A stretch of DNA of 64,000 bases from Flavobacterium sp. TR2. Its GTDB lineage: Bacteria > Bacteroidota > Bacteroidia > Flavobacteriales > Flavobacteriaceae. Each line of letters starts with the position of its first letter. Positions within the stretch are counted from its first letter, which is position 1. Below the pieces are notes generated by a model that ran no database searches, had not been told where the DNA came from, and saw nothing but the letters and a program-made list of their open reading frames with translations. Of the stretch, positions 9,716 to 19,525 are shown in pieces. Made by a program: the position numbers and the translations under genes. The stretch spans positions 1,860,001 to 1,924,000 of the forward strand of contig NZ_CP104307.1 of the NCBI RefSeq assembly GCF_025252405.1. The letters run 5' to 3'.

Positions 9716-10579
9716 ATGAAGAAATACCCCATTTATAGTGTTCAGAATTTCAGTTGCAACGATATTCACCGTGATTTTTATGTAAATACTTTCAAAGAAC
9801 ATTTAAAAAGCCACAGTTTTGTCGAAGAACCGCATCGGCATGATTCGTATTTGATGGTTTTTTTTACCAAAGGCTCAGGATTGCATGAAGTCGATTTTGA
9901 TCAATTCGAAATTAAAAGAGGAAGCCTGTTTGTATTACAGCCTGGGCAAATGCATCATTGGAATCTGTCTGAAGATATTGAAGGTTTTGTCATTATTTTT
10001 TCTCAAGAGGTGTACAATCTGTATTTCGGACAAAAGAAAATCAACGATTATAATTTTTATCATTCCATTCAAAACCGACCAGAAATGGTTTTTGAAGAAA
10101 AGGAAATTCCAAAAATCCTTCCGTATTTTGATCTGCTGATTCAGGAAAATAGGCAAAGCAATAAATATCATTTAGACAAATTGTTGAATTTATTGGATTG
10201 CATTCATATCGAAGTAGCCAGAAAATATAGCGAAACCTACTCGCATCAAACCCATTCGTACAATATCAAAATCAACAAGTTTGAATCGCTTTTAGAAGAA
10301 CATTTCAGAACACAAAAACTGCCGTCGTTTTATGCAGAAAAACTAAATATCACATTGAAACATTTAAATAGAATTTGCAATGAAATTCTTCAAAAAACGG
10401 CTACACAAGTAGTCATAGACAGAGTTGTTCTCGAAATAAAAAGAATGCTGATCGACAAGCAATTGGCAGTAAACGAAGTAGCTTTTAAAGTAGGTTACGA
10501 AGATTACTCGTACTTCTCAAGATTCTTCAAAAAACAAACCGGAATGTCGCCAACAGAATTTAGAAATACCGTGCGTTGA
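9716..10579 (+). CDS. AraC-family transcriptional regulator
   Basis: A 287-residue regulator. Residues about 30-90 form a cupin-like ligand-sensing domain (PHRHDSYLMVFFTKGSG...LFVLQPGQMHHW). The last 100 residues hold the double helix-turn-helix of AraC proteins, including VNEVAFKVGYEDYSYFSRFFKKQTGMSPTEFR. The ligand is unknown. It is followed by a long palindromic repeat and then, on the other strand, by a YceI gene. A role in controlling the YceI/pirin genes is possible but unproven; their shared operator is a symmetric palindrome, not the usual AraC direct repeat. Confidence 0.9.
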   Translation: MKKYPIYSVQNFSCNDIHRDFYVNTFKEHLKSHSFVEEPHRHDSYLMVFFTKGSGLHEVDFDQFEIKRGSLFVLQPGQMHHWNLSEDIEGFVIIFSQEVYNLYFGQKKINDYNFYHSIQNRPEMVFEEKEIPKILPYFDLLIQENRQSNKYHLDKLLNLLDCIHIEVARKYSETYSHQTHSYNIKINKFESLLEEHFRTQKLPSFYAEKLNITLKHLNRICNEILQKTATQVVIDRVVLEIKRMLIDKQLAVNEVAFKVGYEDYSYFSRFFKKQTGMSPTEFRNTVR

Positions 10580-10812: not shown

Positions 10813-11346
10813 TTAAGCTTGTTTTACAAATTGTAATTCAATGTTCAAACGAACCTCTTCACCTACTAAAACACCACCTGTTTCAAGAGCTGAGTTCCAG
10901 TTCAAACCCCAATCTTTACGATTGATTTTTCCTTCTATGCTTAAACCTACTTTTGTATTTCCCCAAGGATCAGTCATGATTCCGCTAAATTCAACTGGGA
11001 ATTTTACTGTTTTAGAAACACCTTTAATGTCTAAATCTCCAGTTAATTCAAATTCACCATCATTAATTTTTTTGAAAGCAGAAGATTTGAAAGTTAATTT
11101 CGGATGATTCTCAGCGTCAAAGAAATCACCACTTCTTAAATGTCCGTCACGATCAGCGTTTGCAGTGTCAATTGAAGCGATATCAGCAGAAAAACTGAAA
11201 TCTGCATTATCAAAACTTTCTCCTTCTGTGCTTGCAGAAGCTTCGTAAGTTCCAAATTTACCTGAAACATTTGTAAACATCATGTGTTTAACTTTAAAAC
11301 CAATTTCTGAGTGTGTTGGGTCAATTGACCATTTTGTAGTTGCCAT
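10813..11346 (-). CDS. YceI-family protein, cytoplasmic type
   Basis: A 177-residue YceI-like lipocalin-fold protein, expected to bind an isoprenoid or other amphiphile. It begins ATTKWSIDPTHSEIGFKVKHMM, matches the family throughout (TFKSSAFKKINDGEFELTGDLDIKGVSKTVKFPVEF), and has no signal peptide, unlike the YceI proteins near 58 kb. Its promoter region is almost the same as that of the pirin gene at 11889-12605, pointing to shared control. The 4Fe-4S mono-cluster protein gene lies just upstream on the same strand. Confidence 0.93.
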   Translation of the reverse strand: MATTKWSIDPTHSEIGFKVKHMMFTNVSGKFGTYEASASTEGESFDNADFSFSADIASIDTANADRDGHLRSGDFFDAENHPKLTFKSSAFKKINDGEFELTGDLDIKGVSKTVKFPVEFSGIMTDPWGNTKVGLSIEGKINRKDWGLNWNSALETGGVLVGEEVRLNIELQFVKQA

Positions 11347-11390
11347 AATTTTATTTTTTTAAATAATTAATTTGTTTCATTTTGATAGGA

Positions 11391-11436
11391 CAAAGTTACG
11401 GTGACAGTTGTCCTGGAGCACTTAACCTAGATTAAG
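11391..11436 (-). promoter_or_regulatory. Promoter and palindromic operator of the YceI gene
   Basis: On the minus strand the -7 box TAACTTTG (11391-11398) is preceded, 18 bases away, by a 20-base element (11417-11436; plus strand AGCACTTAACCTAGATTAAG) with the palindrome CTTAA-N6-TTAAG. The same element, box and 18-base spacing occur before the pirin gene at 12635-12680. The element takes the place of the -33 box, so a regulator probably binds here. Confidence 0.7.
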
Positions 11437-11445
11437 AAATGTAAA

Positions 11446-11489
11446 AGACCTAACAGTCCCGAAGCTTCGGGATAAAACCTGTTAGGTCT
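11446..11489 (-). terminator. Compound hairpin after the mono-cluster protein gene
   Basis: Outer arms AGACCTAACAG and CTGTTAGGTCT enclose the perfect palindrome TCCCGAAGCTTCGGGA. Position just after the minus-strand gene at 11496-11723 suggests a terminator, though the T-run is short. Confidence 0.6.
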
Positions 11490-11495
11490 CTCGCA

Positions 11496-11723
11496 TTATT
11501 TTTTATTCATATAAAATGTCAGCGCTCCCGACGGACATTTATTAACAGCCGAAATTATTTTCTCCGTTGTAGATTGATTCGGAGTAATCCACGGTTTTTC
11601 TTTTGGGCGAAAAACATCCGGATTATTTTTTACGCAATTGGCAGAATGAATGCATTTTCCAGATTGCCATACAATCGTTACTTCGCCGTTTGTGTATTCT
11701 TTAGTGAGGTTATTTGGATTCAT
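11496..11723 (-). CDS. 4Fe-4S mono-cluster (YjdI-like) protein
   Basis: A 75-residue small iron-sulfur protein of the YjdI/Fer4_19 type. The pattern KCIHSANCVKNNPDVF and the later NKCPSGAL supply the three to four cysteines expected for a single 4Fe-4S cluster. WITPNQSTTEKIISAVNKCPSGAL is typical of the family. Its electron partner is unknown. It sits between the YceI and pirin genes, all on the minus strand, but no copy of their shared operator is seen upstream of it. Confidence 0.8.
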   Translation of the reverse strand: MNPNNLTKEYTNGEVTIVWQSGKCIHSANCVKNNPDVFRPKEKPWITPNQSTTEKIISAVNKCPSGALTFYMNKK

Positions 11724-11810
11724 GGTTTGAAATTTTAAGAGTTAGTTTAATTTGAAAATTAGGCCAATTTTTTTACTTATAAAATTAGTCTTTCTTTTTT
11801 GAAATGGAAT

Positions 11811-11857
11811 AAAAAAAGAAACGATAATAATCTGATTTCCAGATTTGTTATCGTTTC
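11811..11857 (-). terminator. Terminator after the pirin gene
   Basis: GAAACGATAA and TTATCGTTTC form a 10-bp stem with an inner AATCTG/CAGATT hairpin. A T-run follows on the minus strand. Confidence 0.8.
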
Positions 11858-11888
11858 AAAGTACAGGTATTAATTGTTTTTGTTTGAA

Positions 11889-12605
11889 TTAATAATTCAT
11901 CGGAATGTCCATTAATAAAAACTCAGCATCTGTATTGGCTTTAATGTTTAAAGTGTCAGTTCCTGAAATTCCAACCGCGTCACGAGTGTTCAATTCCTGA
12001 CCGTTGATGGTTACATTTCCTTTCAAAACGAAAGCATAAACGCCGTTTCCTTCTTTTTTGATTTTATACTCAGTTGCTATTCCGGCATCAAAATTCCCCA
12101 TATTGAACCAAGCATCCTGATGAATCCAAACTCCGTCATCATCTGCATTTGGAGATAAAACCTGAGACAATTTATTATGTCTGTCGGCAACATCCAAAGT
12201 AATTTGCTGATAACGTGGTGTCACGTTTCTTTTGTTAGGAAACAACCAGATTTGCAACAATTTAGTCTGCTGATCCGCATTCGGGTTAAACTCACTATGC
12301 TGAATTCCAGTTCCGGCGCTCATCACCTGAATGTCTCCATTTTTAATGATTTCAGTATTTCCCATGCTGTCTTTATGAGCCAAATCACCTTCAAGCGGAA
12401 TTGTAATAATTTCCATATTATCATGAGGATGCGTTCCAAAACCCATTCCGGCCGCAATCGTATCGTCATTCAATACGCGAAGCGCCCCAAACTGAATTCG
12501 ATCCGGATTGTACCAGCTCGCAAAACTAAAACTGTGATAAGCGTTCAACCATCCATGATTTGCGTTTCCTCTTGATTCTGCTTTGTGCAATACTATATTT
12601 TCCAT
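11889..12605 (-). CDS. Pirin-family protein (YhhW-like, quercetinase type)
   Basis: A bicupin pirin of 238 residues. The metal site is visible in the N-terminal cupin as GTHPHDNMEII (two His) and GTGIQHSEFN (His and Glu), the arrangement of YhhW-type pirins with quercetin 2,3-dioxygenase activity. GDIQVMSAGTG is family-typical. I chose ATG 12605 (MENIVLHKAESRG) because the longer reading to 12665 runs through the promoter box at 12635-12642. The shared operator with the YceI gene suggests joint, perhaps stress-linked, control. Confidence 0.92.
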   Translation of the reverse strand: MENIVLHKAESRGNANHGWLNAYHSFSFASWYNPDRIQFGALRVLNDDTIAAGMGFGTHPHDNMEIITIPLEGDLAHKDSMGNTEIIKNGDIQVMSAGTGIQHSEFNPNADQQTKLLQIWLFPNKRNVTPRYQQITLDVADRHNKLSQVLSPNADDDGVWIHQDAWFNMGNFDAGIATEYKIKKEGNGVYAFVLKGNVTINGQELNTRDAVGISGTDTLNIKANTDAEFLLMDIPMNY

Positions 12606-12634
12606 GATTTTGTCTTTTATTGATTTTGATAGTA

Positions 12635-12680
12635 CAAAGATACGGTCGATGTAGAGGAAAAGCACTTAATGTAGATTAAG
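12635..12680 (-). promoter_or_regulatory. Promoter and palindromic operator of the pirin gene
   Basis: On the minus strand the -7 box is TATCTTTG (12635-12642). After 18 bases comes AGCACTTAATGTAGATTAAG (plus strand, 12661-12680), 18 of 20 bases identical to the element before the YceI gene, with the palindrome CTTAA-N6-TTAAG kept and only spacer bases changed. The bases around the -7 box are also nearly identical in the two promoters. Confidence 0.7.
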
Positions 12681-18949: not shown

Positions 18950-19525
18950 TTACTTTTTCAAAAGGCGAGCTTTCATTTTGCTGAAAAATTCTGGTGTTAC
19001 GCCTATAAAAGAAGCGATTTGTTTTTGAGGAACTTTGTGCACTAAGGTTCCGTATTTTTTAGTAAACTTTTCGAAACGTTCTTCGGCAGGTAAACTTAAA
19101 TTGTCCATCAATCTTTGCTGATTGGCAACTAATGAATTTTCAATCAGAATTCTGAAAAAGCGTTCCAGTTTCGGAATTTCAAGATACAATTGCTCCTGAT
19201 TTTCTTTGGATAGCGAAACGACTTCTGCGTCCTCCAAAACTTCAATAAAAAGCTCTCCCGGTTTTTGCGAAAAATAACTGTACATATCGCTCATCCACCA
19301 GCCTTCGCAGGCGAAAGAAAGCACGTGTTCAACAATATTATCATTGATATTGAAACTTCTTAAAATCCCTGAATTTACAAAGTACGAATGTTTGCAGACT
19401 TCTCCAGCGTTCAATAAAAGCGTTTTGGCTTTGTAGGTGTTTGTTTCCAGTTTAGATAAAAAAAGTGCTTGTTCTTCCGGCGTCAGAGAAACGTGTTTGG
19501 CAATATTTTCAAGAATTAATGCCAT
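18950..19525 (-). CDS. Crp/Fnr-family transcriptional regulator
   Basis: A 191-residue regulator. Residues about 20-115 are a cyclic-nucleotide-binding-type beta-roll (TKTLLLNAGEVCKHSYFVNSGILR-like pattern). The last 45 residues form a winged helix (KVPQKQIASFIGVTPEFFSKMKARLL). No Cys cluster of the Fnr type is present, so it is not an oxygen-sensing Fe-S protein; the ligand is unknown. Its start overlaps the stop of the DUF6370 gene by one base, so it is translated in one operon with purT and DUF6370. Confidence 0.88.
   Translation of the reverse strand: MALILENIAKHVSLTPEEQALFLSKLETNTYKAKTLLLNAGEVCKHSYFVNSGILRSFNINDNIVEHVLSFACEGWWMSDMYSYFSQKPGELFIEVLEDAEVVSLSKENQEQLYLEIPKLERFFRILIENSLVANQQRLMDNLSLPAEERFEKFTKKYGTLVHKVPQKQIASFIGVTPEFFSKMKARLLKK

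Follow-up and report, generated by a model that had tools for sequence, protein, structure and literature searches.

Promoters of the Bacteroidota differ from those of E. coli and, to our knowledge, few regulator-operator pairs have been assigned in this phylum. Among described systems, FNR requires four cysteines for its 4Fe-4S cluster, and the MhqR quinone regulon of the Firmicutes has targets that include a glyoxalase/dioxygenase fold, a carboxylesterase, and an FMN reductase. CprK of Desulfitobacterium, a halophenol sensor of the CRP-FNR family, has the dehalobox TTAAT-N4-ATTAA as its binding site (PMC2610375). Here, a stretch of 64,000 nucleotides from Flavobacterium sp. TR2 (contig NZ_CP104307.1, positions 1,860,001 to 1,924,000; hereafter the window) is analyzed, in which the gene for a YceI-like protein and a pirin gene share a palindromic promoter element. 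On the basis of sequence comparisons, this palindrome is very probably the operator of a dedicated homodimeric activator of the Crp/Fnr family, encoded in the same window at 18950-19525 (minus strand).

Operators and their distance from the -7 box

Both target genes lie on the minus strand, that for the YceI-like protein at 10813-11346 (PF04264, E 2.1e-49) and that for the pirin, which has a quercetinase-type C-terminal cupin domain, at 11889-12605 (PF02678, E 7.5e-33; PF17954, E 6.6e-29). Upstream of them, the plus strand carries 20-base elements composed of AGCA plus CTTAACCTAGATTAAG at 11417-11436 (YceI) and AGCA plus CTTAATGTAGATTAAG at 12661-12680 (pirin). At both promoters, a gap of 18 bases separates this element from the complement of the -7 box TAnnTTTG, which is found at 11391-11398 and 12635-12642. 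Read on the minus strand, the operators are CTTAATCTAGGTTAAG (11421-11436) and CTTAATCTACATTAAG (12665-12680), each 22 bp upstream of its -7 box (TAACTTTG and TATCTTTG, respectively). The original prediction, which was made from the letters of the window, claimed an identical layout before the two genes. This is exact, as a scan of the window with the 46-bp layout returned these two promoters as the only matches with zero mismatches, and a third match had three mismatches. The symmetric part CTTAA-N6-TTAAG is unchanged at both sites as claimed; the symmetry is larger than described, and each site is one inner mismatch away from the perfect 16-bp palindrome CTTAATCTAGATTAAG.

The bare CTTAA-N6-TTAAG motif shows only a mild excess in the window (two occurrences compared with 0.31 expected; two or more in 5 of 100 shuffles), and it is not enriched across the genome (10 places, with 34 in the reversed control). 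It is the complete arrangement that far exceeds chance, namely the longer palindrome CTTAATCTAGATTAAG set at a constant spacing from TAnnTTTG. When CTTAATCTAGATTAAG was searched without a spacing condition and with up to three mismatches, 44 places were found in the genome (63 in the reversed control), including five with one mismatch and three with two. Five of these eight better places have a TAnnTTTG box within 60 bp, all at exactly 22 bp. With N22 and TAnnTTTG included in the pattern, there were seven matches at up to three mismatches, compared with two in the control. The five good sites precede the genes for YceI, the pirin, a second pirin (L008/L022; followed by an OsmC protein gene), an alpha/beta hydrolase (L011), and a protein of the glyoxalase/dioxygenase fold (L014). 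Downstream of the hydrolase gene, the same strand encodes a GNAT protein, an Abhydrolase_2 esterase, and a small protein without assignment. The other two of the seven matches are L011 again, matched on the other strand, and a weaker site (L030) before the gene of a 104-amino acid (aa) protein without a Pfam match. The arrangement, with mismatches allowed in the palindrome, is present before at least five genes of this genome. Further copies do precede stress-type genes, and the proposal of a small regulon under one dimeric regulator is supported. Two places with two mismatches and no TAnnTTTG within 60 bp (L012 and L013) were taken as chance matches, as were most of the 36 places with three mismatches, for which surroundings were examined in part only. 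The last of the eight better places, retained as a candidate (L009; G000:C1:3165095-3165110), has the palindrome CTTAATCTGGATTAAG 21 bp from TATCTTTA and is located between a thiolase gene and a divergent gene resembling a TonB-type receptor.

Across 150 genomes of the same genus, CTTAATCTAGATTAAG-N22-TAnnTTTG with up to two mismatches matched in 92, and the reversed control gave one match in total (in G059). Twenty further regions were picked from the listed matches, mostly other than those of YceI and pirin, and all 20 have a recognizable gene behind the site. The same families recur, namely YceI (either cytosolic or beginning with a signal-like segment), pirins (three kinds when all loci are counted), alpha/beta hydrolase, glyoxalase-fold protein, GNAT with esterase, isochorismatase-like hydrolase, and the 104-aa protein. 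Directly behind a site, these regions also have single cases of an FMN reductase and of an FMN-dependent dehydrogenase. The two window promoters have common letters around the -7 box and their genes are neighbors, which is what a recent duplication or a chance likeness without any common regulator would produce. However, this site is also found before unrelated genes, both at other places in the genome and across the genus, and this conservation refutes such an explanation, to which we give practically no weight.

The 20 further regions are uninformative on spacing because they were drawn from N22 matches. In two larger counts, in which some stretches had been chosen or sized with N22 matches in view, the spacing was 22 bp in 131/137 and 155/166 cases. 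In 80 loci selected purely by protein patterns, the TAnnTTTG box lies at 22 bp in 94 of 101 cases and at 21 bp in four (203 site readings on both strands, boxes sought up to 44 bp downstream, 102 readings without a box). Multiple operator-promoter units were also observed. In G006, four tandem units (L051:1566-2243), two of which share a 50-bp sequence, stand before the 104-aa protein gene and look like the product of repeated promoter duplication; three other loci (L053, L059, and L069) have two units each. Furthermore, an in-frame N-terminal extension resembling an export signal by eye is found in the pirins of L078, L256, and L261, which may be exported.

The Crp-like candidate regulator

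The gene at 18950-19525 encodes a 191-aa protein. Its N-terminal part is a barrel of the cyclic-nucleotide-binding type, as indicated by PF00027 (E 1.9e-07, above the cut-off), the AlphaFold2 model, and VIA-align in agreement. The same model has helices at 119-144, 147-163, 167-174, and 178-190, with a C-terminal helix-turn-helix (HTH) region following a long dimer helix, and FNR covers residues 1-191 in the structure alignment. The protein is not an E. coli-type CRP by the corresponding NCBIfam equivalog (29.1 bits; cut-off 266). It has cysteines at positions 44 and 73 only, both of which vary among orthologs. Cys44 is frequent and not universal (31 of 39), which makes a sensor relying on cysteine alone unlikely; our guess for the effector would be a small ligand bound within the barrel.

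The gene neighborhood supports this protein over the other candidate named in the original prediction, the AraC-like protein at 9716. Among 21 loci (the window and 20 chosen around YceI/pirin sites), the Crp-like gene is present in all 21, and in 10 it adjoins the pirin gene with the operator between them. The AraC gene adjoins YceI and an AraC protein is encoded in 13 of the 21 loci, which is the attraction of that candidate. However, at least six genomes (G012, G019, G021, G032, G040, and G048) have the site without an AraC match at E 1e-40 (a further 43 genomes were also unmatched at this threshold), and five others (G003, G007, G029, G045, and G128) have an AraC protein of at least 60% identity without the site or the Crp-like ortholog. 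The AraC-like protein was accordingly rejected as the general regulator, and its chance of being the regulator is minute.

The phyletic profile agrees with the neighborhood. Full-length matches of at least 55% identity were classified as orthologs and those of at most 46% as paralogs; of two partial matches, that in G145 was counted as an ortholog and that in G121 (69% over residues 1-114) was not, and a match in G130 was rejected as a different Crp paralog. Of the 150 genomes, 89 have both ortholog and site, eight the ortholog only, three the site only, and 50 neither; the associated p value takes no account of how closely the genomes are related. In seven of the eight ortholog-only genomes, a variant site exists: at a spacing of 21 bp (G056 and G071), of the GTCAAG type (G058 and G034), or as CTTAATATAG[GA]TTAAC with a TAnnTTTA box (G022, G027, and G106). 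In the eighth (G046), pirin was not found in the stretch examined. In G143, the site has an imperfect -7 box, and the ortholog was not found in the surrounding 6 kb. These patterns suggest that the Crp-like protein is most likely the regulator of both window operators.

Beyond Flavobacterium, where the regulator-site pair is common, the pair is almost absent from the rest of the family. Only two of 346 genomes have the regulator ortholog at E 1e-52 (48-49% identity), and no site was found by rule in the stretches examined in these two. Six of the 346 genomes (L109-L114) have one two-mismatch match each to the full pattern, and they lack the ortholog at E 1e-52 as well as YceI, pirin, and Crp-like relatives in the 3-kb stretches; these matches are not proven chance, given that the reversed control had no match in this set. 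In the family of G589, the regulator is present in 52 of 201 genomes at E 1e-55 (Mucilaginibacter query), and the pair also occurs in named Mucilaginibacter records. In two Saprospiraceae loci that fail the rule (L256 and L261), a longer pirin gene is preceded by CTTAACCTAGGTTATT and CTTAACCTACATTATT, with 22 bp between the site and a CATCTTTG box. In two distant members of the phylum, two tandem boxes stand before pirin (L327, upstream of 4659; L331, upstream of 7198), with about 21-22 bp between the nearer of them and the -7 box.

Residue 183 and operator column 13

The recognition helix reads TPEFFSKMK in nearly all Flavobacterium orthologs, and 8 of the 11 paralogs in the TR2 genome have LSRIR at that place. 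In a profile alignment, Glu179, Ser182, and residue 183 (Lys183 in TR2; codon at 18977-18979, minus strand) fall on the ExxSR motif of FNR, with residue 183 at the Arg position; Glu179 is invariant in 47 aligned sequences. Some relatives have Arg183, and their promoter-proximal half-site is mostly TCAAG, TCAAC, TCATG, TCATC, or TCATT, which corresponds to a TTGA-like sequence, or TGA, on the opposite strand. Among these relatives, the use of TTGA-type half-sites goes as far as CTTGATCCAGGTCAAG, in L302.

To enlarge the set, 80 loci were added that match peptide patterns lying outside the helix, together with genomes from across the phylum and from the family of G589. When columns 4 and 13 of the operator were left unscored, column 13 was T in 189/189 rows with Lys183 and C in 11/12 rows with Arg183 (202 unique rows of 232, one without residue 183; 25 gene cases had no site by rule). 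With one primary rule-found site per unique protein (n = 160), these values were 141/142 and 18/18, respectively. Eight changes of both traits were counted on a 70-protein tree. The five pairs on supported branches were concordant in 4.9/5 cases on average, and eight pairs are available if unsupported branches are used; in a first tree of 66 proteins, 3/3 pairs were concordant. The covariation is strong in counts, and in independent events it is suggestive and not significant.

The original prediction held that a symmetric site fits the MarR, HxlR, or TetR families better. A repressor of this type, resembling MhqR of Bacillus and Staphylococcus, would bind the palindrome and the Crp-like protein would be a bystander; perfect palindromes are usual for these families, and the regulon resembles the MhqR/quinone regulons. 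However, the base at column 13 tracks a residue in the recognition helix of the Crp-like protein, and does so in several distinct lineages; the recurring neighbor is the Crp-like gene. Together with the phyletic profile, these observations do not bear out the earlier preference, and a regulator of the MarR, HxlR, or TetR type is very unlikely, although the genome was not searched for these families.

Several observations weigh against the assignment of the operator to a Crp/Fnr-type activator. The Crp HTH model was unreported in the Pfam scan of the regulator. The sign test on independent pairs gave 0.0625 (median), which is not significant. Three loci are discordant: L264 (G695) combines Lys183 with C at column 13 (site CTTAATGTAGTTCATG, helix SKMR); L327 has Lys183 with C in the nearer box (CATAATCCAGTTCATC; by eye, unscored) and T in the farther box (TTAAG); and L184 has Arg183, and its second site, before YceI, retains TTAAG. 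At least 60 loci with a Lys183 or Arg183 protein have no site under the rule, and many of these are stretches of roughly 3 kb in which no target gene lies. Furthermore, the site, its spacing, conservation, linkage, covariation, and the fold are computed results, from which binding, activation, and the effector class are inferred. Finally, a repressor overlapping the -33 region could likewise keep a fixed spacing.

Proposed mechanism and comparison with known systems

Class II activators of the Crp/Fnr family have sites centered near -41.5. With the -7 box placed at -12 to -5, as published (PMC9723704), the operator spans -50 to -35 with its center at -42.5, and it does occupy the place of the -33 box as originally proposed. 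In a logo of 128 distinct N22 sites, a conserved T-tract occupies -53 to -51, and a TG directly follows the palindrome. The sites vary at columns 10 and 11 (at column 11, 53% have G and 46% have A), and individual ones are often one base off the core, with GTTAA for ATTAA. A homodimer of the Crp-like protein would bind CTTAAtctagaTTAAG with its center about 42 bp upstream of the start and recruit RNA polymerase to the TAnnTTTG box, substituting for the -33 box. In the promoter-proximal half, Lys183 would pair with a TTAA half-site and Arg183 with TTGA.

Both an activator and a steric repressor had been envisaged, and the near-fixed spacing favors the former. The same protein could act as a repressor on the -33 region that is released by an inducer, given that the site overlaps the position of this element or borders on it and that repressors of detoxification genes are common. 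However, the 22-bp spacing in loci found by protein alone is tighter than steric blocking requires, the center is at the class II position, and the T-rich tract upstream of the distal half is what contact with the alpha subunit of the polymerase would call for. Repression is consequently improbable, and activation by the Crp-like protein is the preferred reading. Since the regulon consists of redox, ester-hydrolyzing, and probably ring-attacking enzymes, an electrophile or an aromatic/quinone-type compound, or the damage that it causes, may switch it on; this effector class is tentative, with somewhat more doubt than assurance.

Among neighboring genes, a divergent 4Fe-4S mono-cluster protein gene (11496-11723, minus strand; PF06902, E 1.5e-23) lies downstream of pirin on the same strand and is probably co-transcribed with it; in several other genomes, a relative (cluster C10) separates the pirin gene from that of YceI. 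The segment 14005-18880 contains a gene for a helix-turn-helix protein with an IrrE-like domain (PF06114) and a weak match, just below the cut-off, to the short-chain fatty acyl-CoA regulator PF09856. It is divergent from two genes that, by eye from their translations, resemble malate synthase and isocitrate lyase.

An operator, its promoter geometry, a regulator, and a specificity residue can here be named together from sequence, and a swap test of one residue and one base is feasible. Pirin and YceI, widespread families of unclear role, gain a regulatory context and partner genes. If true, the repeated changes at residue 183 are a natural experiment in how operators and their regulator change jointly. 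Superfamily, fold, and dehalobox sequence were known before; the regulator, its Bacteroidota regulon, and the Lys/Arg route to TTAA or TTGA were not found described in the open-licence PMC literature.

With respect to CprK, a transcriptional activator of the same superfamily, the core of the ideal palindrome CTTAATCTAGATTAAG is the dehalobox itself; the full core is present at the pirin site, and one half of the YceI site reads GTTAA. Such a likeness would suit a regulon that acts on compounds of the aromatic type. The route to T differs. CprK reaches it through Val192, which replaces Glu209 of FNR (PMC2610375), whereas the present regulator has Glu179 at that position and not Val, retains Ser182, and has Lys183 in place of Arg. 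Both CprK and FNR are described as having an extended C-terminus with contacts that explain the four-nucleotide spacers (PMC2610375), whereas the model of the present regulator terminates at the recognition helix; the lack of this extension fits the loose columns 10 and 11. CprK was absent among the 50 structure matches listed, and no search was made by its name. Among the closest known proteins is also 3dn7, a Crp-like protein from Cytophaga hutchinsonii for which the search gave a structure and neither an operator nor a function.

FNR shares the fold, the aligned ExxS[RK] recognition helix, and the class II placement. Its box, TTGAT-N4-ATCAA, is one base per half away from the ideal core, and the Arg183 relatives use half-sites of this TTGA type. 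However, the two cysteines leave no room for an FNR-type four-cysteine iron-sulfur site, and the regulon does not have an anaerobic look. MhqR has functionally similar targets and is a MarR-type repressor, in contrast to the Crp-type activator proposed here. Taken together, we regard it as a nearly even prospect that a Crp-type activator governs a Bacteroidota-wide electrophile/aromatic-stress regulon in an MhqR-type role, through a substitution other than that of CprK and with repeated switching between Lys183 and Arg183 and the corresponding operators.
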